A stretch of DNA of 13,730 bases from an archaeon (lineage in GTDB: Archaea > Iainarchaeota > Iainarchaeia > CSSED10-239), in NCBI GenBank assembly GCA_029563035.1, contig JAKQTP010000059.1:1-13730 (forward strand), read 5' to 3'. Numbering within the stretch: position 1 is the first letter of the stretch; each line of letters opens with the position of its first letter. Position numbers and translations under genes: made by a program. Below, one piece after another: positions 1 to 13,730 of the stretch. The notes below the pieces were generated by a model. It was not told the DNA's origin and ran no database searches. It was given only the letters and a program-made list of their open reading frames with translations.

Positions 1-3000
1 TGTGTCAACCCCATCAGAAAAATCTAAAGATAATAAAGCCGCCAAAGATTGTTCGTTTAAGTCTATATTGTTTATAAAGCCATTTAGCCCCTCTAAAAAG
101 TTCATTTGTTGTTCTGGTTTTACTGTAGAAAGTGAGTCCCAAAACACATCTTGCACTCCTAAACCTAAATTTCTAAACACTCTTTTTATATTATTTCCAA
201 AGGCTTTTCCCATTGCATTTTTAGATATTAGACTATCTAATTGTTGAATTTTTTCACTAGAACCTTCAAATGCTTCAGAAAATTGTTGATTTAAAGAGTT
301 TTCAACATCTCTAGAAAAATTACCATTACTTATTAAATCTTTTGTTGCTTGTAATGAGCGTTTTGTAATTCCTGAAAAAATTTCATCTATTAAGTTACTT
401 TGTTGAGTTGATAGACCACTAAAAACTTGAACATATGAATTAGCAAAATCACGAAGCTCCAGCTCTTGAAATTTTGCCCACTCCTCGGCAACCTTTGTTT
501 CGTCAATATTTGGTAAAATAAATCCATCTGCTCCAAAATAAGAAGGGTTTAAGCTTTTAAATTTGCTTAGCGTTTTATTAAATTCATCTTTTGATTTTGC
601 GTAAGAACCTAATAAAAGTCTTAAATTTTCTGACATATCTAAGAAATCATCATCTTGCTTTACGTAGCTTTCTAGTGCTGAAATAAAATTACCTTCTGCT
701 TTACTTTCTTCCTTAAAAAGCTCTTTTTGACTTTTTGAAATTTCCCCCTCCGAAGGTCCTTTAGAAAAGTCTTTTTTGATAATTTCAACCACTTCTTGAT
801 ATCTTTTTTCTACTTCTTTTTTTGTTCCTGCATCATTTATTGCTGTTTTTAATTCTTCAAATGTTTTAACTTCGGTCGCCCAATTAAAATTTTCCTTCAC
901 AACTGCCAACATTTCATTAGAAATTGTTTCCATTTCAGACTCATAGAACATATCTTCAATAAATCTACCATTATATATAGAATTTTTCATTGATTTTGGT
1001 GGAGAAATTTTTTTCCTTTCTAAGAATTGTGCAATATTACTTTCCGTAGAGGCTGCTTTGAATAATGAGTCTTCTCTATTTACCCTTTTTGCACTGGCTT
1101 GTGCTATTTGTAAAGATAATAAATCGGATTGTGCTTTTTGATAAATTTCTTGCCGTCTCAACTCATTTGTATATTCTTTTGCAGTTTTTAAAACTTCATC
1201 CCAAGCATCACCTGTTTTTAATATTGGATTACCCAAATCATCATATGCTCCAACTAATTCTGGTAATATTTTTGACAGTTCAGTAGAAATTTCTTTTAGT
1301 CTTTCATTTTCATCAGCCGATTTAACTATTTTTCCAGCCAATTCTTCATACTCTTTTGCTAAAGAAGTTATCTTATTATAAGACTCCACTTGTTTATCTG
1401 CTGCATCACTTGCTGCTACAACTTCATTATTTACTTTTTTTAATGTTTCACCATATTTTTCTACAATATTCTTAACTTTAGCATATGAGTCAACCAATAA
1501 CTTATTTGTTTCTCTACTCTTTTCTAGGCTTTTTATATGCTTGGATATTACTAATGTTAAAGCGGCAAGCGCTGCAGTAACTGCTGCTATAATTAATCCA
1601 ATACCACCACTACCTGTAATAAAAGCCTTTAGAAAACTTACCCCTGCAGTAGTTCCCATTGTAGTTGCCGCTGCATTTATCAACGTTCCAACTTGAGAAA
1701 CAAGTGAAGTTAAGAGTGTAATTCCAACAGTTTTTAATACGGAACTTACTTCCCCACCACCAACTGCTGTAACAATTCCTGTAACCATAGCAGTACCAAG
1801 AGAACTTCCAATTGTTTTTAATGTCATTGCTAAAGTTTGACCCTGCATTTGAAGTGCCCTTTGTGCCGATGTTAATTGTTGCGTAATTGTTGTACCAAGA
1901 TTTGCATTCCCTTGAAATTGTGCTCTTAGATTTACAAATTCTTGCAGGGTACTTGCTGTAAATTGTTTTAGTGTGTTTTTAAACGGACTGTTTAATAGTG
2001 CTCTGTTCGCTGAGTCAGCGCTGGTTAAAACACTGTCTGAAAATGTATTAAAAATTTGACTCATTTGAGTATTGTCTATTTGAGTTCCTCGTGGTAAAAA
2101 TGCATTTGTTAAACGTTGTTGAATACCTGAATTAATTGTAGAAATATTTCCTTGTTTTTTATTTAACTCATTTATATATTGTTGAATAAAATCAGTTCTA
2201 TTTGCACTAGTTCTTAATGCTTTTGATACATCATTAGAAAAGGCAACTGAGAAAGGCGTAACATTTAACCCAGTTCCCATTGTATTAATCATATTTTGTA
2301 ATATTGCGGTGTATTGAGCACCAGTACCCACATTAGATTTAAACCCTTCTTTTATCTTTTCTGCTAAATTAAAACCAATAGTTCTAAGTCCATTTGAGCT
2401 TGCTCTTATACCTTCAACTATACTTAAAACTAATCTTTTTCCAACACTAATTCCAAAGAAAGCTAATACCGCCATTTGTGGCATAGAAAGTTTTGTTATT
2501 TTATCTAAAATATCTGACATAAAATCTAAAGAAAAACCAGCAACTTGTTTAATTGGCAAGTTCATCTTAAATTCTTCCCAAGATGTATTTAATCTATTTA
2601 TCTTAAAATATAAGGTGTCTTGATATTTGTCAAACTGATAACTAGCTTTTCCTGCTGAGGAATACGCTGCACCAATTAACTGTGTTAATCTTTCATGATT
2701 TGATAGTAATGCTAAAAATCTACTTTGTTGTCTACTACCTGCCGCTATTGTTGCAATATAACGTTTGGTCATAATGTCTAAATTACCCCATTTTGAGGAT
2801 AATTCAATAAATACATCATCTAAATCTCTAAACTCACCATTTGCATTCCTTAATGCAACATTTGCCGATTTTAAAGCATCTTCTATTCTATTTATAGATA
2901 TAGCCTCACCCTCTGAATCAACAGTTATTGATGGGTCTTTTGAAACTTCTTGAAAACGTGCTATAACGGCTTTCATAGCTGAACCTAAGTTTTCAGGCGA

Positions 3001-4647
3001 CTCTCTAGTTGTTTCTATCATTTGCGTTAAGAATGCAGATGTTGTTTCAAATTCCATTCCACTTTCTTTAGCAATTGAGGCTGTTTTTGACATAGCATAA
3101 GAAATTTCTCTTACGTCAGCAGCTGCTTTTGCGGCAAGTTCTGAATAAACGTCTGTTACTCTTCCTGCATCCGCCATTTCTAGCTTAAATCCACGAATTG
3201 CCCCTGTCATCAAGTCAGTTGTTTGTTGGAAACCTAAACCTGATAATGTTGCCAATTTCATAGTCTCGGCTGTTACTTCCATAACCTCATTCGTGTCTAA
3301 GCCTTGCTGATAGAATAAAGCAGAACTTTCTATTACAGATAGAGTGGATGCACCATATTTTTTAGACATTTCCGCATATTCTGAATACTGTTGCCACATA
3401 CTTTCAAGACTTCTTGAAGTAACCATTGCTATACTTGCAAAACCTTCATCAAGTTTTTTAATAGTTTCCCATGTTTCTTCAATTTGTTTTCTACCAAAAG
3501 TCCAAAGTGTAAAAACAGAAGCAAATGTTTTTAGCCTGTTACCTAAATCATTAAATACCGCATTCATTCTTTCAGTCTTTTTAATATGTTCATCCGCCGC
3601 TTTGGTCTGCGAATTTAATTCTCTAGTTAAAGACTCAAAAGAACCAGTAGCAATATCAACCGAACTAACTATTTGACTATGAGTCGCCCCAGTCATTGTA
3701 TCAGCCATATCTTGGAAAGCTTGTCTATTGTTATTTATCGCAACTTCTTGTTGCTGAATTTCTTCTGTAATGGTATTTGGCAAATTAACTATCCTTTGAA
3801 AAGCTTCTAATTGTCCTTCCATGTTTGTAAAAGAACCAACGAAACTTTGTAAATTACCAACTCTTGTTGTTAAATCTCCACCACTTAATATATTAGATGG
3901 TAAAGCACCTGTATTTTCCCTTTCGTATTGCTGTATTAATTTACCAGCTTTATTTTTCCAGCCAGCCATTCCAGAATTTTGAATTTGAGCAATTTCTTCA
4001 GTTAGTTTTTTTATTTTTTCAAATTCCTGTTTAGCTTTTAATAGCCCTTCTGGGGTATCAATATCTATATTGAGTCTTTGCCCCAAATCACTAAATTCCT
4101 TAGAAACTGGAATAGTTTTTATCATTTCCTTTAATTTTACTGCATAAACTGTAGGGTCAAATAAAGACCTTGCCAATTCTGATGCCATTGATTTAGATAC
4201 ATTTAATTTTGTCCCACCTGTATCAATAATTCTACTTTTTAATACATCTTTATTTCTAAGTTTATCTATTTCTTTATTAGCATCTTCTATTTGTCTTGTT
4301 AGTCCGTCTAAACCTGCTCTTTTGCCAATATCAGAAACTTCAATATCTTCTAAATTAACTTTTGTTCTTTTTATACTTTCAGTTAAATTATTAAAATTAT
4401 TTAATAAGCTTTTTATTTCCGCATTAAATCTTGCTGTATCTTCTGAACTTTTGAAGCCTTTTGAGATACTTTTTTCAATGGTTTCAGCACTTCTTTCTAC
4501 ACGTTCCATTTCACGTCTAAATTTTTGAGCAAAACCATCTTTTATATCTTGTCCTTTTAGGGCGTTTTTTATAAGGTCAAGACTTTTTAGTATGTCTTTG
4601 ACATCAAATTTTCCTTCTAAACTTATCTGTTGTACTTTTTTCTTCAT
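1..4647 (-). CDS. Phage tail tape measure protein (C-terminus beyond left edge)
   Basis: This protein sets tail length, occupies the tail tube lumen and usually helps pass DNA through the host membrane. The frame is open from an ATG at 4647 to base 1 with no stop, giving 1549 codons so far; the C-terminus lies outside the window. GGGAGG sits 5 bases before the ATG, which fixes the start. Residues 1-370 are charged and helix-rich with coiled-coil character. Residues about 370-570 look like the TP901-type tape measure core: a 'YGAS..SVIESSALFYQQGL' stretch near 431-450, then 'GLGFQQTTDLMTGAIRGF', 'YAMSKTASIAKESGMEF' and 'SAMKAVIARFQEV'. Hydrophobic stretches lie at about 721-745 and 950-1035; the latter is rich in Gly, Ala, Thr and Val and could cross a membrane. 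A Lys/Glu-rich coiled coil follows at about 1035-1110. The length is typical of long-tailed phages. It is the last gene of the visible operon, 10 bases after the nuclease-like gene. The family call is firm; whether the missing end carries a lytic domain is unknown. Confidence 0.93.
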   Translation of the reverse strand, partial: MKKKVQQISLEGKFDVKDILKSLDLIKNALKGQDIKDGFAQKFRREMERVERSAETIEKSISKGFKSSEDTARFNAEIKSLLNNFNNLTESIKRTKVNLEDIEVSDIGKRAGLDGLTRQIEDANKEIDKLRNKDVLKSRIIDTGGTKLNVSKSMASELARSLFDPTVYAVKLKEMIKTIPVSKEFSDLGQRLNIDIDTPEGLLKAKQEFEKIKKLTEEIAQIQNSGMAGWKNKAGKLIQQYERENTGALPSNILSGGDLTTRVGNLQSFVGSFTNMEGQLEAFQRIVNLPNTITEEIQQQEVAINNNRQAFQDMADTMTGATHSQIVSSVDIATGSFESLTRELNSQTKAADEHIKKTERMNAVFNDLGNRLKTFASVFTLWTFGRKQIEETWETIKKLDEGFASIAMVTSRSLESMWQQYSEYAEMSKKYGASTLSVIESSALFYQQGLDTNEVMEVTAETMKLATLSGLGFQQTTDLMTGAIRGFKLEMADAGRVTDVYSELAAKAAADVREISYAMSKTASIAKESGMEFETTSAFLTQMIETTRESPENLGSAMKAVIARFQEVSKDPSITVDSEGEAISINRIEDALKSANVALRNANGEFRDLDDVFIELSSKWGNLDIMTKRYIATIAAGSRQQSRFLALLSNHERLTQLIGAAYSSAGKASYQFDKYQDTLYFKINRLNTSWEEFKMNLPIKQVAGFSLDFMSDILDKITKLSMPQMAVLAFFGISVGKRLVLSIVEGIRASSNGLRTIGFNLAEKIKEGFKSNVGTGAQYTAILQNMINTMGTGLNVTPFSVAFSNDVSKALRTSANRTDFIQQYINELNKKQGNISTINSGIQQRLTNAFLPRGTQIDNTQMSQIFNTFSDSVLTSADSANRALLNSPFKNTLKQFTASTLQEFVNLRAQFQGNANLGTTITQQLTSAQRALQMQGQTLAMTLKTIGSSLGTAMVTGIVTAVGGGEVSSVLKTVGITLLTSLVSQVGTLINAAATTMGTTAGVSFLKAFITGSGGIGLIIAAVTAALAALTLVISKHIKSLEKSRETNKLLVDSYAKVKNIVEKYGETLKKVNNEVVAASDAADKQVESYNKITSLAKEYEELAGKIVKSADENERLKEISTELSKILPELVGAYDDLGNPILKTGDAWDEVLKTAKEYTNELRRQEIYQKAQSDLLSLQIAQASAKRVNREDSLFKAASTESNIAQFLERKKISPPKSMKNSIYNGRFIEDMFYESEMETISNEMLAVVKENFNWATEVKTFEELKTAINDAGTKKEVEKRYQEVVEIIKKDFSKGPSEGEISKSQKELFKEESKAEGNFISALESYVKQDDDFLDMSENLRLLLGSYAKSKDEFNKTLSKFKSLNPSYFGADGFILPNIDETKVAEEWAKFQELELRDFANSYVQVFSGLSTQQSNLIDEIFSGITKRSLQATKDLISNGNFSRDVENSLNQQFSEAFEGSSEKIQQLDSLISKNAMGKAFGNNIKRVFRNLGLGVQDVFWDSLSTVKPEQQMNFLEGLNGFINNIDLNEQSLAALLSLDFSDGVDT

Positions 4648-4660
4648 ATTTACCTCCCTA
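4648..4660 (-). promoter_or_regulatory. Stop codon fused to Shine-Dalgarno of the tape measure gene
   Basis: On the minus strand this reads TAGGGAGGTAAAT followed by ATG. The TAG stop of the upstream gene supplies the first base of the GGGAGG ribosome binding site, and the spacing to the start is 5 bases. This settles the tape measure start at 4647 and implies that ribosomes finishing the upstream gene can restart here. Confidence 0.75.
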
Positions 4661-6232
4661 AACTAGACTTAAGATTTTATTCATCGCCGCCTGAGCGGTT
4701 CTAAAAGAAAAGTTAGCCTTTTTATAAATTGTTTTACCAATATTGATACCTTCTGGGAATAGTCTATCATTTAACTGTTGTGTTCGATTTGCCTTTAAAA
4801 GATTATTGGAAAAGTTATTTCTATTATTTATTACAATGGCATTTTGATATCTTTCTAATATTAATGATAAAGGAACTATTTTATCTTGTACAAATAGAAA
4901 GTCTACTTCATCCTGTTTTGAACGTCCACCTAAAAATAATGCCGACATTCTTTTTAAATCTTCTAAAAAAGCTTCCATTTCTAAAAAGCTTTCATTAGAT
5001 GAAATCATTTGAAAAACGGTATTTGAATACCAATATTTAAATGCAGGTGATTGTAGATACTTAGCAAAATTTGCCGAACCACTTTGTTTTCCTAACCAGT
5101 CTTTATTGGTTAATGCGGAAAACCCACCTTTATGAAATTCTAAATTTGTTGTTGTATAATTTTTTGCCGAAAAGTTTATTTGCTTTTGCACTTTGTTTTT
5201 TCCTGTACCAAAAGAATAGTCCCAAACAAAGTCAATCTTTTGTTGCTTACCCCTTATTCTTTTTGTTCCAATAGTTTTACCTTTTATCTTTAAACTACTA
5301 CTTGAAGTTCCTTTCTCAAGTGCTTTTGTTAACTCATAAGATAAATTATCTGCTAAATTATCACCAAGTTGTTGTTCGTAAGCATCACCTTTTTCTTTTG
5401 ATGATAAGCCCTCCTTAGAAGCTTTGAAGTCAAATAAGTTAACCAATCCACTATCTAAATATTTATCTTTAAATAGTTTACGTTCTTTAAAAATTATTCC
5501 TATTTCATTAAAAGAATTTTTTATTTCCTTTTCAATTTTTGATTTAGCATTATATTGACCTTTGTTAGTCTGTGCTAAGTAAGTTATAGCACCTGATAAA
5601 CGTTTTATATATGTTTTTAATAATGTTTGTTCAATTTCTGCGTTTGCAGAACCTACTTGACTTTGTATTTGAGATAAAACTTTTGTTAATCCTTGTATAA
5701 TAAGTTCTAAATCCTCAGGGTTCGTTTTTAAAATATTTAACATAGCTATTAAAGATATGCTATTAAAAGAAAAATTCTCATTTAAAAAAACTTGATTAAA
5801 TATATCTTCTATTCCTTTTAAAAGTGTTTGTTCAAAGAGAGTTTCTTCCTCTTTATCTATTGTACTTCCAACTTTTAAATAATTTGATAAAAAACGGCAA
5901 GACTCTTCAAGTGTTTGTGGCTCTTCTGTCTTTAATATTTTAGCAACTTTTTTTGCCAATGGAATTATTTTTCTTTGCTCTTTTTGCTTTTGACCTTGTA
6001 CAGTTGCCATAAATCCAGATTTTGAGAATTTATTTGATAATTTGCTTTGATATGAAATATCATTCTCTTTAAAATGCCTTTCAAATTGTCTATGTACATA
6101 AGTTTCAGGTAAAGCCAGTTTTTTCTTTACTCCATAACTACCATCAGGGTATTTATCAAATAGAAATCTTCGGTATTCTCTCCAGCCACAATTTTTATCC
6201 CAACTATTTGCTATTATTAACTCTTTAGACAT
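4658..6232 (-). CDS. Phage protein with candidate PD-(D/E)XK-like nuclease region
   Basis: This is 524 residues from the ATG at 6232. I do not recognise the full-length protein. Residues about 280-360 have the order expected of a PD-(D/E)XK fold: an acidic helix ('GDAYEQQLGDNL', Glu286), then 'KIDFVWDY' with Asp334, then a strand 'INFSAKNY' with Lys357. In the last motif a Ser stands where Glu or Gln is usual, so catalysis is uncertain. The C-terminal part has 'EVDFLFVQDKIVPLSLIL' near 441-458, a small strand-turn-helix that I believe recurs in related phage proteins. The middle (about 100-250) is mostly helical with a charged, coiled-coil-like character. No signal peptide or membrane segment is seen. 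It overlaps the end of the preceding gene by 8 bases and ends 10 bases before the tape measure gene, so it is probably co-translated with tail genes and may be a virion or tail assembly protein. Alternative in-frame starts are a TTG at 6241, with AGGTGA 5 bases upstream, and a GTG at 6250. The nuclease label is a hypothesis. Confidence 0.85.
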   Translation of the reverse strand: MSKELIIANSWDKNCGWREYRRFLFDKYPDGSYGVKKKLALPETYVHRQFERHFKENDISYQSKLSNKFSKSGFMATVQGQKQKEQRKIIPLAKKVAKILKTEEPQTLEESCRFLSNYLKVGSTIDKEEETLFEQTLLKGIEDIFNQVFLNENFSFNSISLIAMLNILKTNPEDLELIIQGLTKVLSQIQSQVGSANAEIEQTLLKTYIKRLSGAITYLAQTNKGQYNAKSKIEKEIKNSFNEIGIIFKERKLFKDKYLDSGLVNLFDFKASKEGLSSKEKGDAYEQQLGDNLADNLSYELTKALEKGTSSSSLKIKGKTIGTKRIRGKQQKIDFVWDYSFGTGKNKVQKQINFSAKNYTTTNLEFHKGGFSALTNKDWLGKQSGSANFAKYLQSPAFKYWYSNTVFQMISSNESFLEMEAFLEDLKRMSALFLGGRSKQDEVDFLFVQDKIVPLSLILERYQNAIVINNRNNFSNNLLKANRTQQLNDRLFPEGINIGKTIYKKANFSFRTAQAAMNKILSLV

Positions 6233-6252
6233 AAGGTTCAATAGTATCACCT
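6225..6252 (-). promoter_or_regulatory. Overlapping stop/start with ambiguous translation start
   Basis: The end of the upstream gene reads AGGTGA, 14 bases, ATGTCTAA, so its TAA stop overlaps the ATG of the next gene by 8 bases. AGGTGA is too far from the ATG for ideal spacing but is 5 bases from an in-frame TTG at 6241. The start may therefore be the TTG, or the ATG reached through translational coupling. The same AGGTGA word serves as the ribosome binding site of the gene starting at 8257. Confidence 0.5.
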
Positions 6253-7049
6253 ACCAAAAAAGTTAATTTATTAGAATATTTTTTATTATCATTTTCATCA
6301 GCCAATGCAGTAAACTCAAAATCATAACTTGTAAAATTATTATCTGCACCAAGTTGATAACTCAAACTAGGACGAATTATTGCTTTTGGAAATTCAATAA
6401 CACAAGATGATTTAAGTTTGGTTTGTTCATCTATATAAACAATTTCCCCCAAAATTTTAAAAAACATAGTATCACCTTTTGATAGCGTATAAAGAGTTTT
6501 CTTAACATCTTTTTCAAAAGAATAATAAACTATTACATCTAAATTTGCTGTTTCAAATGTTATAACTTTTCCATCTTGACTAATTGGTGATAATCTATTC
6601 ATATCTAAATCATAGCAAAAAACATTTTGATAAAAATTCTTTTCTATTTTTTTTGTTATTGTTTTATCATCATTACCTATATATAAATCACCTATATCTC
6701 CTAAAGGCGTTTCTTTTAGTGTAATTTGAAAAAGCTCATTTGTTTTTAGAACTTCTCTTTTTGCAACTGGAATTTTTTCTATATTGTCTTGTACATTTAG
6801 ATTTTGATGGAATATTTGTAATTCTTTTGTACTTACAATTCCCTTATTTATTCTAAAAGTGGTATCTTTGGTAAAATCCCAATATACGTTTCCACCGTTA
6901 CTATTAGTCGTTTCCAAGTTTTGAAAATTTGGTGTAAGACTTGAAAAATCAGCTTTTTCTAAAAATAGAACAGGTTCTCCTTTTTCATATTTATCTGTTT
7001 TTTGATAAGATAATAAATGTATATTATATATTTCTTTAAAAGTAAACAT
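6225..7049 (-). CDS. Divergent tail-tube-like structural paralog (shortest member)
   Basis: 274 residues, the shortest and one of the most divergent of five related proteins in the window. The N-terminal half (about 26-80) retains 'GEPVLFLEKADF', then 'NGGNVYWDFTKDTTFRI' and an 'INKGIVSTKEL' segment at the place where relatives have 'QDAL.S..S'. The C-terminal half (about 205-252) has 'CVIEFPKAIIRPSLSYQLGA' followed by 'YDFEFTAL', matching the 'FPK...FDF' half of the relatives. The region between the halves is mostly unique. No signal peptide or membrane helix is present. The ATG at 7049 follows AGGAGG with a long 11-base spacer, and a strong hairpin lies just upstream, so this gene may be translated or transcribed less than its neighbours. 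Its last 8 bases overlap the following gene. The role is inferred to be a low-copy tail component such as a tube terminator, completion or hub protein. Family membership is visible in the sequence; the role is not proven. Confidence 0.88.
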   Translation of the reverse strand: MFTFKEIYNIHLLSYQKTDKYEKGEPVLFLEKADFSSLTPNFQNLETTNSNGGNVYWDFTKDTTFRINKGIVSTKELQIFHQNLNVQDNIEKIPVAKREVLKTNELFQITLKETPLGDIGDLYIGNDDKTITKKIEKNFYQNVFCYDLDMNRLSPISQDGKVITFETANLDVIVYYSFEKDVKKTLYTLSKGDTMFFKILGEIVYIDEQTKLKSSCVIEFPKAIIRPSLSYQLGADNNFTSYDFEFTALADENDNKKYSNKLTFLVGDTIEPYV

Positions 7050-7075
7050 AACTATAATACCCTCCTATAAAAATG

Positions 7076-7098
7076 CCCACCATTAGATAAATGGTGGG
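7076..7098 (-). terminator. Intergenic hairpin, possible leaky terminator or processing site
   Basis: In the minus-strand transcript this is CCCACCAUU, loop UAUCU, AAUGGUGGG: a perfect 9-bp stem with a 5-base loop, followed by CA and then five U. It lies in the only intergenic gap longer than about 12 bases, between the gene ending at 7106 and the ribosome binding site at 7061-7066. The U-run is short and offset by two bases, so termination is probably partial at best. RNA processing or 3'-end protection of the upstream message are alternatives. Confidence 0.5.
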
Positions 7099-7105
7099 TT
7101 TAGTT

Positions 7106-8257
7106 TTACAACTCTAAGTTCTCTTCTAATTCTACATTTAGAGTAGAGAATGTGTTGTAATTCTCTATAAGTTTGGTTTTTATTACGTTATCTTTCTGTT
7201 CATAAAATACTATTTTATATAAAGGCGTGTTATTTGCCAAAATTGGCTCTGCTGTAAAAGAAAATAAAGCAGGCTCTTTATTACTAAAAGGAGAGTTCTC
7301 GGCGTATATTTTCATTTCAGGGAAAATAACTTGAAATTGTCGCCCATCTGTTGTTTCACCAGTTCCAATTAAAGAATAAATTTCGTTGTTTGGTTGAATT
7401 GTAAAAGTATACTCATCTGCCAGTTTTTCAAATGGAACAGGTTGATATATTCTTTTCTTTATATAATATTTTTGCCCTTTTGGAACTATTATATTTTCTT
7501 CATCAGATGAATATATATTAAAATTTTTATCTAAATATAAAGTATATTCTAAATCTTCCATTTGTTGTGAAATTAAAAAGTTCTCGTTTTGTTCAGAATT
7601 TTTTATTATTATTTCGTTATTTGAAAAGTTTTGTTCTATTAATTCTAAATATTTTTTTTCCACTTTTTGACTGGTTGTTTCAAAAAGCTTATTTGAAAGT
7701 GGCTCTAAAGCTTGCAATAATTCGCTTTCTATTGCGGAATATTGAACATTAAAATTTACTAATGTTTCTGGTCTATTGTAATATCTTTTTAATAGTGTTC
7801 GAGAATTTTCTTTTGAATAGTCACCTAGAAAATAATTTTCCTCATATACCTGTTCCGCCTTTTGAAATAATATAGATATTTCATCTTGAGTTAATTTTGG
7901 TGAAGGTTTTGCTTTGGTTGTATAATTTTTTTCGCCATATTCATTTGCGGTAAGACACTTTATGTATAGTGATAAATGTGTTGATATTAAATTTTTTTTA
8001 TTTTGAGAGTTATAAAATAAAAAACTTTCATCTGACAATAAGCCCTCCTCAAAAGTTAATTGATAATTTTCGCCAAAAACTTGACTCCCTATTTTTGTGT
8101 TATTATAACTACCAGAATAGACTTTTTTTGTTGAAACTTTTTTTAAATCAGTTACTTTTAAATGGTCTAAGTGTAGATAAGGGATAAAAAATATTTTATC
8201 CCCTATTAATTGTTTTTGTGAAAGTGTTATATTGTATAAATTTTTTAAATTATACAT
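7106..8257 (-). CDS. Divergent tail-tube-like structural paralog
   Basis: 383 residues, related at low similarity to the other A-like proteins. The N-terminal half (about 22-82) has 'FFIPYLHLDHLKVTDLKKV', aligning with 'YVPYLFIETAKAS' and 'YLPFLFLDTLKMY' of its relatives, and 'LTFEEGLLSDESF' where they have 'QDAL.S..S'. The C-terminal half (about 238-340) has 'YTLYLDKNFNIYS' (relatives: 'YLNPDTMQPYN'), a 'KGQKYYIKK' segment, then 'RQFQVIFPEMKIYAENSPF' and 'EPALFSF'. A helical, Lys/Glu-rich insert of about 155 residues separates the halves. No signal peptide or membrane helix is seen. The ATG at 8257 has AGGTGA 4 bases upstream, overlapping the TAG stop of the preceding gene, so translation is probably coupled. 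A long hairpin lies inside codons 18-27. It is probably a minor structural protein of the tail; the exact role is unknown. Confidence 0.88.
   Translation of the reverse strand: MYNLKNLYNITLSQKQLIGDKIFFIPYLHLDHLKVTDLKKVSTKKVYSGSYNNTKIGSQVFGENYQLTFEEGLLSDESFLFYNSQNKKNLISTHLSLYIKCLTANEYGEKNYTTKAKPSPKLTQDEISILFQKAEQVYEENYFLGDYSKENSRTLLKRYYNRPETLVNFNVQYSAIESELLQALEPLSNKLFETTSQKVEKKYLELIEQNFSNNEIIIKNSEQNENFLISQQMEDLEYTLYLDKNFNIYSSDEENIIVPKGQKYYIKKRIYQPVPFEKLADEYTFTIQPNNEIYSLIGTGETTDGRQFQVIFPEMKIYAENSPFSNKEPALFSFTAEPILANNTPLYKIVFYEQKDNVIKTKLIENYNTFSTLNVELEENLEL
8177..8206 (-). other. mRNA hairpin within codons 18-27 of the structural gene
   Basis: The minus-strand RNA can form a 13-bp stem (AUAGGGGAUAAAA with UUUUAUCCCUUAU, one G-U pair) closed by the 4-base loop UAUU. 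It begins 52 bases after the start codon. The arms are in codon register: Ile18 pairs with Tyr27, Gly19 with Pro26, Asp20 with Ile25 and Lys21 with Phe24. Hairpins occur at the equivalent position in two paralogs. The function is unknown; there is no U-tract, so it is not a terminator. Confidence 0.5.
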
Positions 8258-8265
8258 TATATCAC

Positions 8266-9600
8266 CTACTCGTTTGTTAATTCATAAATTATTTTCATAT
8301 TAAAGTCTGAGGTTTTAACTATTGGGGACGATAAATTATTAATTGTTCCCAAATAATAATTTGTTCCCATTAAAGTTAACCCACTATCCCCCTGATAGTG
8401 TCTTTTAGACCACAACATAGGGTGTTTTATTTTAGTTGAATAAGGCGTTATTATTGTCCCTAAGTAGCAACTTTTTCCATCTGACATAAATTTAATATTT
8501 GTTCCATCGCAAATAATAAAAGTGTTTATAGGTCTTGCTGAATCAGCATAATGTCCCCAAATTATTTTATTATTGTAAATTCCAACATCATAATTAACAC
8601 CTATTTTTAAATTTAGATTGGCGTTTAGGCTTCCATCTAAATTTCTTTTTGTAATGTTATATGTACTATCACACAAATAATAAAAACCGTCAAAATATAT
8701 ACAGTTTCTTGCATAAGTAGATATAGTAGAAAGTGTTGCTCCAGTATTTTTTAATGTTTCTGTTACGGTGTAATTTGTTAAATCTAATTCAACGTGTGAA
8801 AAACTAGTTGTTCCTAATACACATATAAAATGTACAATATTTCCAACTCTACTTCCAACATAAGGTATTCTATTGCTTTGCGTTCCTGCAAAAGTAACTG
8901 TTATATCATCACCTTTTTTTGTCGCTCCTATTTCTAAATCTGTGAGTTTGTATCCTTCAGCAGTATTTGGTATTTCTAATTCGTTTAAAATCCATGTGGT
9001 GTTAGTTCCTTTTCTTGCATACAAGGCTTTTGTATCGCTTAACATTGTGACAAAATAAGAATCAGAGTCTTCCAAATCAAAGCAGGGTGAAGCCTGTTGA
9101 AAAAAACAAGGGCTTTCTTTTTCATTTTGCCCACTTAAACTCATCCAACCATTATTGCCTGTGTTTCTATGTGTTAAAGTTAAAGCTTTTATTGTTTGTC
9201 CATTGCATCTTGCTGTGTCGAAATCCCAAACATTTCTATATCCGTTTGTAATTACTCCGCTTTCAGGAGCGTTAAGAGTCCCTCTATATGCGTTGCTGCC
9301 ACTGTAACCTCCGCCTGCTCTACCGATATTATTTACAGTCATAGGAGCATCAACTAAATCTATATCTTCTGTAAGTGTGTTATCCCATAATAAAATTCCA
9401 CCCAATCCTTTTGTAGATAAGGGAGTTAATTCTTTTATATAGTTATTTATTGTTGTCTCTGTGTGGAATTTATTTTTATATAAAACACTTGTTTTAAAAG
9501 CATTTGATATAGCATTTGTTATTAAGTTTTTGTTTTCAAATTGCTCTTCTACTTTTTGAGTAAAAGGATTTATCATTTGTATTATACTTTTTCCTTGCAT
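8266..9600 (-). CDS. Tail appendage / receptor-binding-like virion protein
   Basis: 444 residues, not related to its flanking genes. The N-terminal 45 residues ('INPFTQKVEEQFENKNLITN') look like an anchoring segment. They are followed by 'GGILLWDNTLTED' (67-79), 'NNIGRAGGGYSGSNAYRGTL' (90-109), 'ESGVITNGYRNVWDFDTA' (113-130) and 'IKALTLTHRNTGNNGW' (137-152). I recognise this pattern from phage tail fibre or minor virion proteins of low-GC Gram-positive hosts. Residues about 175-400 are a series of strand-rich repeats ('IYFDGFYYLCDS', 'GIYNNKIIWGHY', 'TFIICDGTNIKFM') consistent with a beta-propeller or similar all-beta domain. The C-terminus 'YLGTINNLSSPIVKTSDFN' (416-434) matches the usual ending of this family. 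No signal peptide is seen. The ATG at 9600 has AGGAAG 7 bases upstream, overlapping the TAG stop of the preceding gene. Its place between two sets of tube-like paralogs suggests it decorates or tips the tail. Receptor binding is inferred. Confidence 0.88.
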   Translation of the reverse strand: MQGKSIIQMINPFTQKVEEQFENKNLITNAISNAFKTSVLYKNKFHTETTINNYIKELTPLSTKGLGGILLWDNTLTEDIDLVDAPMTVNNIGRAGGGYSGSNAYRGTLNAPESGVITNGYRNVWDFDTARCNGQTIKALTLTHRNTGNNGWMSLSGQNEKESPCFFQQASPCFDLEDSDSYFVTMLSDTKALYARKGTNTTWILNELEIPNTAEGYKLTDLEIGATKKGDDITVTFAGTQSNRIPYVGSRVGNIVHFICVLGTTSFSHVELDLTNYTVTETLKNTGATLSTISTYARNCIYFDGFYYLCDSTYNITKRNLDGSLNANLNLKIGVNYDVGIYNNKIIWGHYADSARPINTFIICDGTNIKFMSDGKSCYLGTIITPYSTKIKHPMLWSKRHYQGDSGLTLMGTNYYLGTINNLSSPIVKTSDFNMKIIYELTNE

Positions 9601-9611
9601 TATTTCACTTC

Positions 9612-11330
9612 CTAAATTATAATATTTTCATTTGTTGCCGCTAATGTAAAATCATCTAAATTCTCCAAAGACATATTTAAAATTTCTGATAAATTTTCTT
9701 CATCAACAGTTCCATAGTTTAGCTGATAGGTTTGTATGATATCATCTAAAATTAAATTATCAACACTCTCCAAGTTTAATGTTTTATTTTTTATTTTTAC
9801 TTTAACTCCTTGTGTTAGAGTATTAGAATTGCTAAACCACTGACCGCCCCTATATATCCAATATGGAAGGATTTGAACCAAGTCACCATTTATATACTGA
9901 ATTTGTCTAATTGATAATAGAGTTGTAAAACCTATTCCACTATAAAGATTAGCTTCTTCTAGTCCATCTCTTGTAAAAACAACAATTGTATTATCATAAT
10001 CCTCGTCTGTATCTATTCTATCTAATATATATATCATATCATGAGTTGCATTTCTTTTTAACCAAACACTTCCTTCGGCTATTTGTTTATCTTTGGGTTC
10101 ATTTAATGAAACATAAATATTTAAACCAACTCTTTTTGACGTAAAAACTTCACCTTGTTTGTTTTCATTATAAAAGAAATCTCTGTTTTCTACAACCTCA
10201 AAAGAGCCATTTTCATTTATATTTCCATTAAAAGTATTTATTGTCATATAATTTCCATCTTCACTTTCTAAAACATCAAAATCAAAATCAAACACTACTG
10301 GAGAATTTTCATTTATTTCAAAGTTTTGCCCGAAATTTAAAGAGACTTTTGGAAAGCATATTTGATAAAATTCATCTTTTCCGTTTAGATTTCTTTTTTT
10401 TGTAACACCAGTTAACCTATATTCTCCACTTGATAGTTTAGCATCAATTGTAATTTGTCCACCATAATCAGTAAATTCATCAGCAATTTTTCTTTCAAAT
10501 TTAAAATATTCTTCACCCTTATAGAAAGTTTTAAAATATCCTTGCTTATCTTTCCAACTTTTTACATTATGATTATATGGTTGCATAGTATCTGGGTTTA
10601 AATAAGTTACTATATTTTTTTCTAAGTAATCTGGATTGTTTTTTAGTAAATAGTGTTTTTTGTTTATTTCCGTATCTATAGCAAATATTTTTTTGGCAAT
10701 ACACTTGTTTATAACCTCAATCTTTTTTAGCTTTTTTGCACTTTCAGTTTTTAATAAATCTTGAGGAAATAATTCCGCCATACCGATATAATCTATATCA
10801 CCTTCATCATTTTTAAAACTTAAATTTACATTATCAATTATTTTTTGAATACAATCTAAATAATCTGCTTGTAATAATAATTTTTCCATTTGATACTCAG
10901 AAAAAATTTGTATTGCCATTTTATCATTTTCAGAAAATTTTGTATAAGGAAAGCTAATCTTTCTATATAATTTTTCTGTTAATAAACAACTATCATCTTG
11001 AACATTTAGATATTTTTTTACATATTCTAAAATTGAATTGAAAGTTTCCGTAAACTTTGAACCTTGCAATAGTGCGTAAGAATTATTGGAAACTAAAGCA
11101 TCTTGTACTTTTACATTTACATTTCTATTAAATGAATAACTAATCATGTTAGAATGATTATTTCCACCATTTATTTTTACATTTTCGGCAGTCATTGAAT
11201 GGGAATACATTTTAAGAGTGTCCAAAAATAAGAACGGCAAATATATTTTATTGCCATAATCATCAAATTCTATTCTTTCTATAAGAATGTCCGCCATCTC
11301 ATTTAATCCATATTTTTCAAAGTTTTTCAT
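9612..11330 (-). CDS. Large tail-tube-like structural paralog with C-terminal extension
   Basis: 572 residues, the largest complete paralog. The N-terminal half (31-90) has 'LPFLFLDTLKMYSHSMTAEN', an 'NGG' segment and 'VKVQDALVSNNSYALL'. The C-terminal half (241-363) has 'YLNPDTMQPYN', 'YKGEEYFKF', 'YGGQITIDAKLSSGEYRLTG', 'NGKDEFYQICFPKVSLNFG' and 'PVVFDFDFDVLESEDGNYM'. Of all the paralogs this half is the closest to that of the gene at 12517-13730. A helical insert of about 150 residues separates the halves. After residue 395 comes an added domain: 'EGSVWLKRN' near 419-427 and 'PYWIYRGGQWFS' near 489-500 resemble small accessory repeats found at the ends of phage virion proteins. The start is ATG 11330 with AGGAGG 6 bases upstream; that site lies within the last codons of the preceding gene, one base separates the two genes, and translation must be coupled. 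It is probably a low-copy tail structural protein. Function inferred. Confidence 0.9.
   Translation of the reverse strand: MKNFEKYGLNEMADILIERIEFDDYGNKIYLPFLFLDTLKMYSHSMTAENVKINGGNNHSNMISYSFNRNVNVKVQDALVSNNSYALLQGSKFTETFNSILEYVKKYLNVQDDSCLLTEKLYRKISFPYTKFSENDKMAIQIFSEYQMEKLLLQADYLDCIQKIIDNVNLSFKNDEGDIDYIGMAELFPQDLLKTESAKKLKKIEVINKCIAKKIFAIDTEINKKHYLLKNNPDYLEKNIVTYLNPDTMQPYNHNVKSWKDKQGYFKTFYKGEEYFKFERKIADEFTDYGGQITIDAKLSSGEYRLTGVTKKRNLNGKDEFYQICFPKVSLNFGQNFEINENSPVVFDFDFDVLESEDGNYMTINTFNGNINENGSFEVVENRDFFYNENKQGEVFTSKRVGLNIYVSLNEPKDKQIAEGSVWLKRNATHDMIYILDRIDTDEDYDNTIVVFTRDGLEEANLYSGIGFTTLLSIRQIQYINGDLVQILPYWIYRGGQWFSNSNTLTQGVKVKIKNKTLNLESVDNLILDDIIQTYQLNYGTVDEENLSEILNMSLENLDDFTLAATNENIII
11234..11257 (-). 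other. Small mRNA hairpin at codons 25-33 of the structural gene
   Basis: The minus-strand RNA can pair AUGGCAA with UUGCCGU (7 bp including one U-G pair) across a 10-base loop. Alone it would be unremarkable. It is listed because it falls at the same homologous place, just before the conserved Pro-(Phe/Tyr)-Leu segment, as the stronger hairpins in the two related genes starting at 12504 and 8257. Confidence 0.3.
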
Positions 11331-11331
11331 T

Positions 11332-12504
11332 TTATCCCTCCTGCAAGCTTATTTTATATTCGCTTTTAGAAGGTTCTGCTAGAACTAAAGCCGAAAAATC
11401 CATAACAATAGGTTCTCCATCAGAAGTTGGCGATAAAGAAATTTTCTTTTCAAAGAAAACTTTGGGATATTCAATTTCATAAAAAGTATCTTTTCCTGTT
11501 GATTTATCTCTTTTTACGCCAATACATTTTACTGAGTAAAAGAGGTTATTATCTATCTCTTCTATTTCTTGTATATTCTCTTCAAATACGCCAAATATAA
11601 GATATTTTTCGCCCTCATAAATTATATCATTATCATTTAAAGGCAAAAGAGTTTCTTTATTTAATACACAGAAAAAATTATTAATATCTACATTTTGATA
11701 TTTTGTTAATATTTCATATATTAATTCGTTTAAGTTAGAGAATTGTGTGATTTTTATATTAAAGAAACTATAAAAATCCGTATCTCTTGAATATGTTTTT
11801 TGTACAACATATCTATTTTCTTCTATATCATATTTCATAAAAATTAAATCACTTAATTCATCTTTATAAAATATTGCGTCAATTTTTATACTATTTTCTA
11901 CATTTTTTTCTAAGGTATTACAATAAAACACGATTGTATTTCCTTGTAGTTCATGGTTAAACATTTTTCCAACATGAATGCCATCAAATTTGCTATCATA
12001 TTGTCTTTCTTTCATTTTTCTAAAAACCAACTCTTTATCAAAATAAGTTGGCTTTTCTTCTATTATTGAGTTTGTTGTAGAAAATAAAATTTGTCTTTGT
12101 CTATCCTCTTGTGAGAAAGGGTCGTAATATTTTTCAAAATAACTTCCTGATAAGTTATTATCTTTTTTTATTAATTCACTTACAGTAGTCTTACCATAAG
12201 CAACTTTTTTTCTCAATGTTTTAATTGAGTTTTTTAAATTAGTTGTACCTTTTATTAAAAATTCTATTGACTTATTACTAATTAATGCGTCCTGAAAGTT
12301 TAAAGTGGTTTTACTTTCACCACTCCATGCTATTAAATTTTTTTGTTTCTTTCCACCTTGTGCAATTACGGTATTGCTACTAACAACACTTTCACTTGCC
12401 TTCGCTGTTTCTATAAACAAATAGGGAACGTATGAAACGTTCCCATTATTGTCTACTGTAATAGCGGAAATCAAGATGTCATTGACCTCTTTTATTCCGA
12501 ACAT
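11332..12504 (-). CDS. Tail-tube-like structural paralog with large insert
   Basis: 390 residues. The N-terminal half (24-85) has 'YVPYLFIETAKASESVVSSN', 'QGGKKQKNLIAW' and 'LNFQDALISNKSI'. The C-terminal half (277-376) has 'FFCVLNKETLLPLND', 'YEGEKYLIF', 'CIGVKRDKSTGKDTFYEIEY' with the following 'PKVFFEKK', and 'PIVMDFSALVLAEP'. Between them lies an insert of about 190 residues, the largest in the family, rich in Lys, Asn, Phe and Tyr and without recognisable motifs. There is no signal peptide or transmembrane segment. The ATG at 12504 follows AGGAGG with 8-base spacing, in TAGGAGGAG that also holds the stop of the upstream gene. Its own final codons (Gln-Glu-Gly) encode the AGGAGG used by the next gene. 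It is probably a structural component of the tail made with its paralogs; an exact role such as initiator, hub or decoration cannot be read from the sequence. Confidence 0.9.
   Translation of the reverse strand: MFGIKEVNDILISAITVDNNGNVSYVPYLFIETAKASESVVSSNTVIAQGGKKQKNLIAWSGESKTTLNFQDALISNKSIEFLIKGTTNLKNSIKTLRKKVAYGKTTVSELIKKDNNLSGSYFEKYYDPFSQEDRQRQILFSTTNSIIEEKPTYFDKELVFRKMKERQYDSKFDGIHVGKMFNHELQGNTIVFYCNTLEKNVENSIKIDAIFYKDELSDLIFMKYDIEENRYVVQKTYSRDTDFYSFFNIKITQFSNLNELIYEILTKYQNVDINNFFCVLNKETLLPLNDNDIIYEGEKYLIFGVFEENIQEIEEIDNNLFYSVKCIGVKRDKSTGKDTFYEIEYPKVFFEKKISLSPTSDGEPIVMDFSALVLAEPSKSEYKISLQEG
12424..12444 (-). other. mRNA hairpin within codons 21-27 of the structural gene
   Basis: The minus-strand RNA forms a perfect 8-bp stem GGGAACGU / ACGUUCCC with the 5-base loop UUCAU, 61 bases after the start codon. 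It pairs the Gly21-Asn22 codons with Val26-Pro27. The codons GGG and CCC are GC-rich choices for such an AT-rich gene. It sits at the same homologous position as hairpins in the genes starting at 11330 and 8257. No U-tract follows. Confidence 0.45.
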
Positions 12505-12519
12505 GGATTACTCCTCCTA
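12505..12519 (-). promoter_or_regulatory. Stop codon fused to Shine-Dalgarno
   Basis: The minus strand reads TAGGAGGAGTAATCC and then ATG. The TAG stop of the major structural gene is part of the AGGAGG site, 8 bases from the next start. This fixes the start at 12504 and supports translational re-initiation between the two paralogous genes. Confidence 0.75.
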
Positions 12520-13730
12520 TACAGTTTTATACATTTTTGCACTATCTGGTGTTATTGTTGGTAGTGAGTTTACTACTACTGTTCCGCCTTCACCTGCTAG
12601 ACCAACTTCTTCTATGTCATAAGTTTCTATAATTACTGATTTGCCATCTTCTGGTTTTAAAACTTTTACTGGCATTGAGAATACAGTAGGGTCACCTTCT
12701 GCCTCTAGTGTTATTGTTTGTTCTGTTAGCATTTTAGCTTGTGGAATAACAATAGACATTCTCTTGTCTTTTTGAGTTTCTTGAGACCTTGTGTATGTAG
12801 TCATTGTTATTTTGTAAGTGCCAGGGAATGCATCCTGTGATATTTCGATTTTTCCGCCAAGTGATGTTCCGTCAACTGCTACTGAACGTGTCCATTTTAA
12901 GAATACTTCGCCTTCTGCAATTGGTGTACCATCATCAAATGGTTTCATTGTATTAGGATTAAAGTAAACTGTTGCAGTAGCATCTTTTTCAGCCTCTGTT
13001 GGTTTGCCCAAACTATTACCTGCTGGTATAATGAAAGCTTTTGTGGCTTTAATTTTTTCCATTCTGTCTACTGATTTTAATTCTTTAACAGCGTTTGTCA
13101 AATCTCCATTTTCATCAGAACCCATTTGTAGAGCCATTGATGCTGGTGAATATAGGGCATCTTGTAAGTCAAGAGTAATTTCTTTACCAAAGTCCCAAGT
13201 AATTAGTGAAGAGTTACCTAAACCACCTGTAGCAGAAACACTTTCAGCTGTTTGTTCTAGTGTAGAAACCTTTAGAGTATCCAAGAATAGAACTGGAGTA
13301 TATCTGTTTACTATTTTCATAGTCTTTTTAATTTTTAATGCTGTCATTTCATATGATACTGTTATTGTTCCCAAGTTAGGAACATTTAAGTAACCAGTAT
13401 GAATTATGTGGTTGTCTGCTAAATCAGCACATTCGGCATCAGTTAAGAAGCCTGCAATAGTAACTAGCCAGCCTATTGTATTTACTGATGTTGTACTGTA
13501 GTAAGGTACTTCAAAAATACCAGCTTTTGTTCCAACGATTACTAAAGCGATATATTCTATACCTTTTAATGCATCATCTGTATATACATACTTTGTACCG
13601 CCTATTGTGATACCAAATTCGCCCGCTGTATCAGTTAGTAAAGCAGAACTATTTAAATTACGCATTACATAAATTTTAGCATTTTCTTTTGGTGTTAAGT
13701 TATCTTGTCCATCTACCACACCCACATCTG
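12517..13730 (-). CDS. Probable major tail-tube-like protein (N-terminus beyond right edge)
   Basis: At least 402 residues. The frame runs to the right edge without a stop; the first in-window start candidate (GTG at 13725) has no visible ribosome binding site and is preceded by an in-frame Asp codon, so the true start is probably outside. Numbered from that GTG: residues 1-130 form an extra domain, rich in Val, Ile, Gly and Thr, that I do not recognise and that the paralogs lack. The N-terminal family half is 143-200 ('TPVLFLDTLKVSTLEQTAES', 'ITWDFGKEITLDLQDALYS'). The C-terminal half is 254-360 ('YFNPNTMKPFDDGTPIAEGE', 'GGKIEISQDAFPGTYKITMT', 'IVIPQAKML', 'DPTVFSMPVKVLKPEDGK'). A short Gly-rich tail follows. 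The linker between halves is only about 54 residues, the shortest in the family. Base composition is visibly less AT-rich than the neighbours and the protein is poorer in Asn, Lys and Ile, as in abundant virion proteins. It is probably the main tube or other major tail protein; this is inference. Confidence 0.85.
   Translation of the reverse strand, partial: DVGVVDGQDNLTPKENAKIYVMRNLNSSALLTDTAGEFGITIGGTKYVYTDDALKGIEYIALVIVGTKAGIFEVPYYSTTSVNTIGWLVTIAGFLTDAECADLADNHIIHTGYLNVPNLGTITVSYEMTALKIKKTMKIVNRYTPVLFLDTLKVSTLEQTAESVSATGGLGNSSLITWDFGKEITLDLQDALYSPASMALQMGSDENGDLTNAVKELKSVDRMEKIKATKAFIIPAGNSLGKPTEAEKDATATVYFNPNTMKPFDDGTPIAEGEVFLKWTRSVAVDGTSLGGKIEISQDAFPGTYKITMTTYTRSQETQKDKRMSIVIPQAKMLTEQTITLEAEGDPTVFSMPVKVLKPEDGKSVIIETYDIEEVGLAGEGGTVVVNSLPTITPDSAKMYKTV

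Follow-up and report, generated by a model that had tools for sequence, protein, structure and literature searches.

The long flexible tails of phages are described, in the passages of PMC5717097 and PMC9022992 that treat them, as polymers of a single tube protein, built up of hexameric rings stacked on each other. Among the tube proteins known individually, that of Bacillus phage SPR (PDB 8k98, 8xkn and 8ygm), the trigger of DSR2, has the same fold as, and a detectable sequence kinship with, five proteins named A to E here, which are encoded in a 13,730-nucleotide stretch, here called the window, of contig JAKQTP010000059.1 of assembly GCA_029563035.1. Compared with the SPR protein the window has five copies with other inserts, the copy count being given for the window side alone. 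Proteins of phrog_2729 from Lactococcus 949-type, Bacillus PJN02 and BcoS-136, Brevibacillus Sundance and Enterococcus phages belong to the same family, and in these cultured phages the tube gene lies after a gene in the chaperone position and before the tape measure, of which the window shows the tape-measure side, but at one place per record (41 of 41). The finding of five tube versions in an uncultured gut-type phage, where cultured relatives have one, suggests a tail of several ring kinds, and A to E are probably all tube proteins of the same non-contractile tail, of siphovirus type, with A as the bulk tube and B to E as specialised rings.

Tubes with more than one kind of subunit have several partial parallels. 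Phage T4, with a contractile system, has gp19, gp48 and gp54, which we take to be its tube and tube-initiator proteins. In SPP1 two tube protein forms are reportedly found in one tail as products of one gene; the window is similar in proposing several forms in one tail, but here they are encoded by paralogous genes. The SPP1 case is cited in passages of PMC8718954 and PMC9022992, and a passage of PMC11445458 refers to two subunits. The stacking of several tube-fold proteins in one machine, as described for Alg1, Alg5 and Alg7 of AlgoCIS in part of PMC8894135, is comparable to the proposal made here, although initiators of contractile systems are tied to spike and baseplate whereas all five genes precede the tape measure in the window. 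Two major tail protein genes are present in Gordonia cluster DJ (PMC12859696, PMC10652937) and, according to the relevant passage of the Damascus paper (PMC11080557), in clusters EL, AM, AU, AW, BI, CC and DJ; the two DJ copies share 43% identity, and for one of them horizontal acquisition was considered probable. By gene count, more than one per phage, these actinophages resemble the window and, as far as these passages go, they are the direct precedents. Two copies are not new, but the window has five old copies in a fixed order. No report of at least three tube paralogues in a siphophage was found in searches of the open-licence PMC literature.

The tail module of the window is a single co-directional block on the minus strand in the order A, B, C, X, D, E, Y and tape measure, with intergenic gaps of 12, 1, 11, 8, 56, −26 and 10 bases in that direction. 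Gene A (12517..13728), for the main tail-tube protein, is truncated at the window edge, which corrects the first-pass annotation, and the C-terminal 403 of about 632 aa are present; the protein has a tube domain whose first strand is followed by a long insert. In P0001, the closest relative of A among the matches listed (632 aa), an insert of roughly 345 residues parts the first tube strand from the remainder, which begins near residue 374. B (11332..12504, 390 aa) is named by its position because profile scores give it no class. C (9612..11330, 572 aa) has a C-terminal extension from about residue 385, D (7106..8257, 383 aa) is the most diverged paralogue, and E (6225..7049, 274 aa) is compact and lies on the tape-measure side. 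The tape measure gene (1..4647), of which the N-terminal 1549 aa are encoded before it runs off the window, matches phrog_4211 (3.9e-43) and Pfam PhageMin_Tail (2.5e-27).

The five genes had been proposed as paralogues from short signatures, and all 15 quoted motifs were present in the named genes and in the named order, the first and second signatures being 43, 43, 43, 43 and 41 residues apart in A to E. The proposal was borne out independently by a profile built from 46 short A-type relatives, single-copy phages included and window sequences excluded. Among the eight window proteins this short-A profile found A (3.2e-65, 209 bits), C (4.7e-34, 107 bits), B (1.7e-21, 66 bits), E (8.1e-15, 44 bits) and D (1.5e-8, 24 bits), while X, Y and the tape measure were not reported at E 10, X and Y scoring −0.6 bits. 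Chance similarity was ruled out with 500 shuffles and the reversed sequence of each protein, since the best control scores for A, C, B, E and D were 8.0, 7.3, 6.7, 13.5 and 5.6 bits, all far below the real ones. In a profile scan of the window proteins phrog_2729 was matched by A (6.5e-36), B (1.6e-13), C (7.4e-22) and E (8.5e-16), and not by D. Pairwise BLAST was strong for A-B (2e-8), A-C (3e-15) and B-C (2e-13), weak for A-D (5e-4), A-E (7e-4) and C-D (0.005), and detected no similarity between D and E.

D is linked to the family through its relatives, as the class D profile scores window D at 81.9 bits, against 24 bits for the next profile, and hhalign of D to class D gave 99.3%. With profiles made from the classes of other phages, window A was assigned to A (492 bits), C to C (198 bits) and E to E (65 bits), while window B fitted no single class (C5 71.7, short A 66.2, B5 56.8 and D5 52.8 bits). 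An all-against-all profile comparison, which the first-pass annotation had suggested, agreed with its claim: hhalign gave 100% for every pair among classes A to D, 89-98% for class E against A, C and D, and 92% or 7.9% for E against B according to the E set used, with at most 3.4% for three control families. The sets had 18-42 rows after short or partial ones had been removed in classes A, B and E; for the controls the first 30 rows per class, window excluded, were taken, with tape measures trimmed to 900 residues. These results show a common ancestry of A to E.

That the five genes encode tail-tube proteins follows from family, fold and place. Membership of the SPR/phrog_2729 family was found by profile for A, B, C and E with phrog_2729 itself and for D with the short-A (1.5e-8) and class D profiles, and the SPR tube protein was also reached at the sequence level by profiles. 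When the PDB was searched with A as a single sequence the best match had E 1. Structure prediction covered E and C, both of which had the tube protein of SPR as best Foldseek match, and E and the core of C are predicted to have the tail-tube beta-sandwich fold; the expectation of a shared fold thus held for the modelled pair. PF27173 is the Pfam label on metagenome relatives, and was not reported by the Pfam scan made here. The five genes are placed in a tail module, as had been read from the sequence; they are upstream of the tape measure, on the side where cultured relatives keep their single tube gene.

The further suggestion that tube, caps and hub derive from one ancestor was not supported. 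One fold and repeated duplication in one block were upheld (the fold for E and C), but not a descent of caps and hub from that set. In the five-copy relative L102 a separate Dit gene is found downstream of the tape measure (phrog_33 3e-14, Pfam Sipho_tail 1.7e-9), followed by a large protein of 1875 aa. L007 has, upstream of its tail chaperone, two genes in the usual stopper and terminator positions, from which we presume their roles; the smaller matches phrog_6123. Profiles of the Dit-, terminator- and stopper-position genes gave hhalign probabilities of 0.1-0.6% against seven tube profiles. For E as a Dit-type cap, no Dit family was matched at E 1, hhalign of Dit with E gave 0.1-0.3%, and E precedes the tape measure; for A to E as tail terminators, the terminator-position gene gave 0.1-0.4% against the tube profiles. 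Because Dit is separate and the Dit, terminator and stopper profiles lack similarity to the tube, the five genes are tube rather than caps and hub.

How often such sets occur was counted in 178 sources, namely IMG/VR contigs, one metagenome-assembled genome contig, phage records and the window. Leaving out 20 sources below 4,000 bases, the remaining 158 all contained a tube gene and gave 93 distinct cassettes, of which 20 without a flank, the five-copy window among them, were set aside. The 73 two-flank cassettes had one copy in 5, two (A then E) in 51, three in 1, five in 15 and six in 1, and none had four. The sample is biased, as loci were found by A- and C-class queries each scan giving at most 80 matches, and the single-copy cases, five in number, are hand-picked records of the phage collection. 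The order A-B-C-D-E, with the chaperone ahead and the tape measure behind, was found in 15 of 15 five-copy cassettes. Tube genes lay between tail chaperone and tape measure in 72 of 73, the exception having one of three copies upstream of the chaperone, and E was the final tube gene adjoining the tape-measure side in all 68 cassettes with two, three, five or six copies. The five-copy set is therefore a stable trait.

A tblastn search with A matched 41 of 50,697 phage records, at one place each, and so did a repeat with a class D protein; an E-type query matched 8 phage records at a single place in each. The duplication had been called unusual, which these single-place matches confirm. Because none of the 41 matching records shows it, the five-copy trait so far belongs to metagenome contigs. 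Protein searches with D and with E found one near-identical protein apiece, and a search of viral contigs for B gave 3 pattern matches, none of them a relative. Additional tube copies outside the cassette were ruled out for 19 records searched whole with phrog_2729, in which all matches fell within one block of less than 10 kb. L086 and L087 carry a third tube-like copy at 7944-8768, upstream of the tail chaperone, and L009/L034 have six tube copies with class D doubled and TAG recoded.

In a quick tree of 114 rows without outgroup, a single branch set off each of the five-copy classes B (support 100), D (98) and E (96) from all other rows, and A formed one group that included window A (support 99). 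C was not one clade, as B arises within it, although this is not forced by any starred branch. The tree left the window's own B, C and D unplaced, as their long branches meet. Hairpin identity within and between loci was 0.63/0.63 for A-C, 0.60/0.60 for B-C, 0.57/0.57 for C-D and 0.60/0.58 for A-D; gene conversion is ruled out by this equality, and the copies are therefore old and not homogenised. The split into A to E predates the divergence of these phages. A split of A from E followed by a later expansion of A into A to D is likely, because A and E are the pair found in two-copy phages, and B, C and D fall together with A.

The copies differ in conservation and in decoration. Compared with its counterparts, window A was the most conserved: in the hairpin it reached 71%, against 23-31% for B to E, and in the C-terminal part 56%, against 31% for C and 20% for E, with B and D not measurable there. 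The insert of A follows the first strand and is about 420-860 aa in five-copy relatives, while those of B, C and D are large and variable, up to several hundred residues, and sit in the variable middle of the sandwich, in C often also C-terminally. In five rows of classes B and D, those of the window included, the alignment failed past the N-terminus, and the insert sizes for these classes come from the other rows. E had no unaligned stretch of at least 40 residues in 12 of 17 rows and only terminal ones in the other 5. All five proteins would form rings in one stack with a common tape measure at its centre. Most of the tube would consist of A, which evolves slowest and corresponds to the only tube protein of the cultured relatives. 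B, C and D would give specialised rings or zones, docked on A by way of the beta2-beta3 hairpin that they share with it and bearing different surface modules; and E would be an undecorated special ring, perhaps at the tube end. In SPR the hairpin loop is part of the tube-forming domain D1, with D2 peripheral, according to the passage of PMC10981675 on its domains. More tentatively, the siphophage tube could consist of five ring kinds in a set order, each with its own surface module, which in C-like relatives may even be a dockerin, making the shaft a position-coded display surface where a uniform tube would be expected. A longer tail as the cause of the extra genes was ruled out, as tape-measure length does not track copy number: unbroken tape measures had 2560 and 2641 aa in five-copy phages (n=2), 2266-2989 aa in two-copy loci (frame ending inside the locus) and 2532-3276 aa in one-copy phages.

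Several points weigh against this arrangement. The five proteins are known here from their genes, and their presence and place in the particle are predicted from these. B, C and D of the window are far diverged, so that one of them may no longer belong to the tube. Among counterparts, too, the hairpin is the better conserved part (for B, as an example, 0.80 against 0.65), so that its similarity between paralogues says little in favour of docking; E, moreover, does not share the A-D hairpin (22-27% identity). E against B reached only 7.9% by hhalign with one E set, lone window sequences gave 10% for A-D, 12% for A-E and 0.1% for D-E, and the fold was modelled for two of the five proteins with a mean pLDDT of 70.7 for E and 54.8, poor overall, for C.

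Of the alternatives, the one that survives best, though we think it unlikely, is that A alone makes the tube body and B to E each form one or two adaptor rings at tip or neck, like the tube-fold initiators of contractile systems. It would agree with the high conservation of A, with E closing the row of tube genes ahead of the tape measure in all 68 multi-copy cassettes, and with the fold shared by the AlgoCIS tube protein Alg1 and initiators Alg5 and Alg7 in the part of PMC8894135 concerned, but big variable inserts in B, C and D would be odd for adaptor rings and a separate Dit gene exists. Somewhat less probable again is the recruitment of some paralogues, D or E foremost, to a role outside the tube, to which the lowest short-A scores of D and E and the differing hairpin of E point. 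Mixing of several paralogues within one hexameric ring is improbable: five co-encoded subunits of one family with a similar hairpin might allow it, but one- and two-copy relatives manage without B to D, and conservation and insert sizes are unequal. Least of all do we expect that the phage employs a single tube protein at any one time, be it as a variation cassette or as a countermeasure to host proteins that sense tube monomers, for although DSR2 is triggered by the monomeric tail-tube protein of SPR, the best structural match (PMC10981675, in part), the genes form one co-directional block with short gaps (no search for a switching element was made), keep the same class order in 15 five-copy cassettes, and would seem to offer five targets easier to sense than one. 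With five tube proteins kept long-term in one lineage, the assembly of a tape-measure-guided polymer in ordered segments becomes testable, as do the selection of ring identity and whether the shaft, besides the tip, is specialised for binding.

Gene X (8266..9600, minus strand), between C and D, is an unrelated, fibre-like gene inside the tube operon without a tube-profile match. Matches to its N-terminal 148 residues were found in proteins of two phages, one of Coprococcus and the other of Ruminococcus, and in the Coprococcus phage the matching gene lies directly before the holin, a receptor-binding position; these matches hint at a host among gut Clostridia. Gene Y (4658..6250, minus strand) lies between E and the tape measure, a place that is also filled in five-copy phages. 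Y and 15 open reading frames (ORFs) from that place in five-copy relatives show GE ... D(I/V) ... (Q/N)xK(N/H)Y in most rows, that of L031 lacking it, a pattern that resembles the PD-(D/E)XK nuclease core; neither the window nor the L102 copy of Y had a significant Pfam or PHROG match.

Some C-like tube proteins of relatives carry an inserted type I dockerin (PF00404), as in P0042 (183-235), P0045 (181-238), P0078, P0081, P0086 and P0117. The label was found on 15 of 120 listed relatives of A, and all 6 chosen proteins that were scanned passed the curated cut-off. Judging by the domain match, a dockerin on the tail shaft could bind cohesins of cellulosome-bearing bacteria; the word dockerin was absent among the literature matches listed.

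Since A, C, X and Y of the window end in TAG, TAG is a stop there and recoding was ruled out, while many relatives differ in having TAG recoded. Group I introns (RF00028) were absent from the window. Five recoded relatives chosen for a gap at the 3' end of the frame of tube gene A all had such introns there: L009 (10927-11202, with a second at 11259-11550), L035 (5911-6242), L036 (5779-6109), L049 (7317-7611) and L101 (6185-6451). Group I introns were also found between two tape measure frames, five in L103 (7762-10483) and one in L105 (10927-11256), and the ORFs between the tape-measure introns appeared by eye to be homing endonuclease-like.
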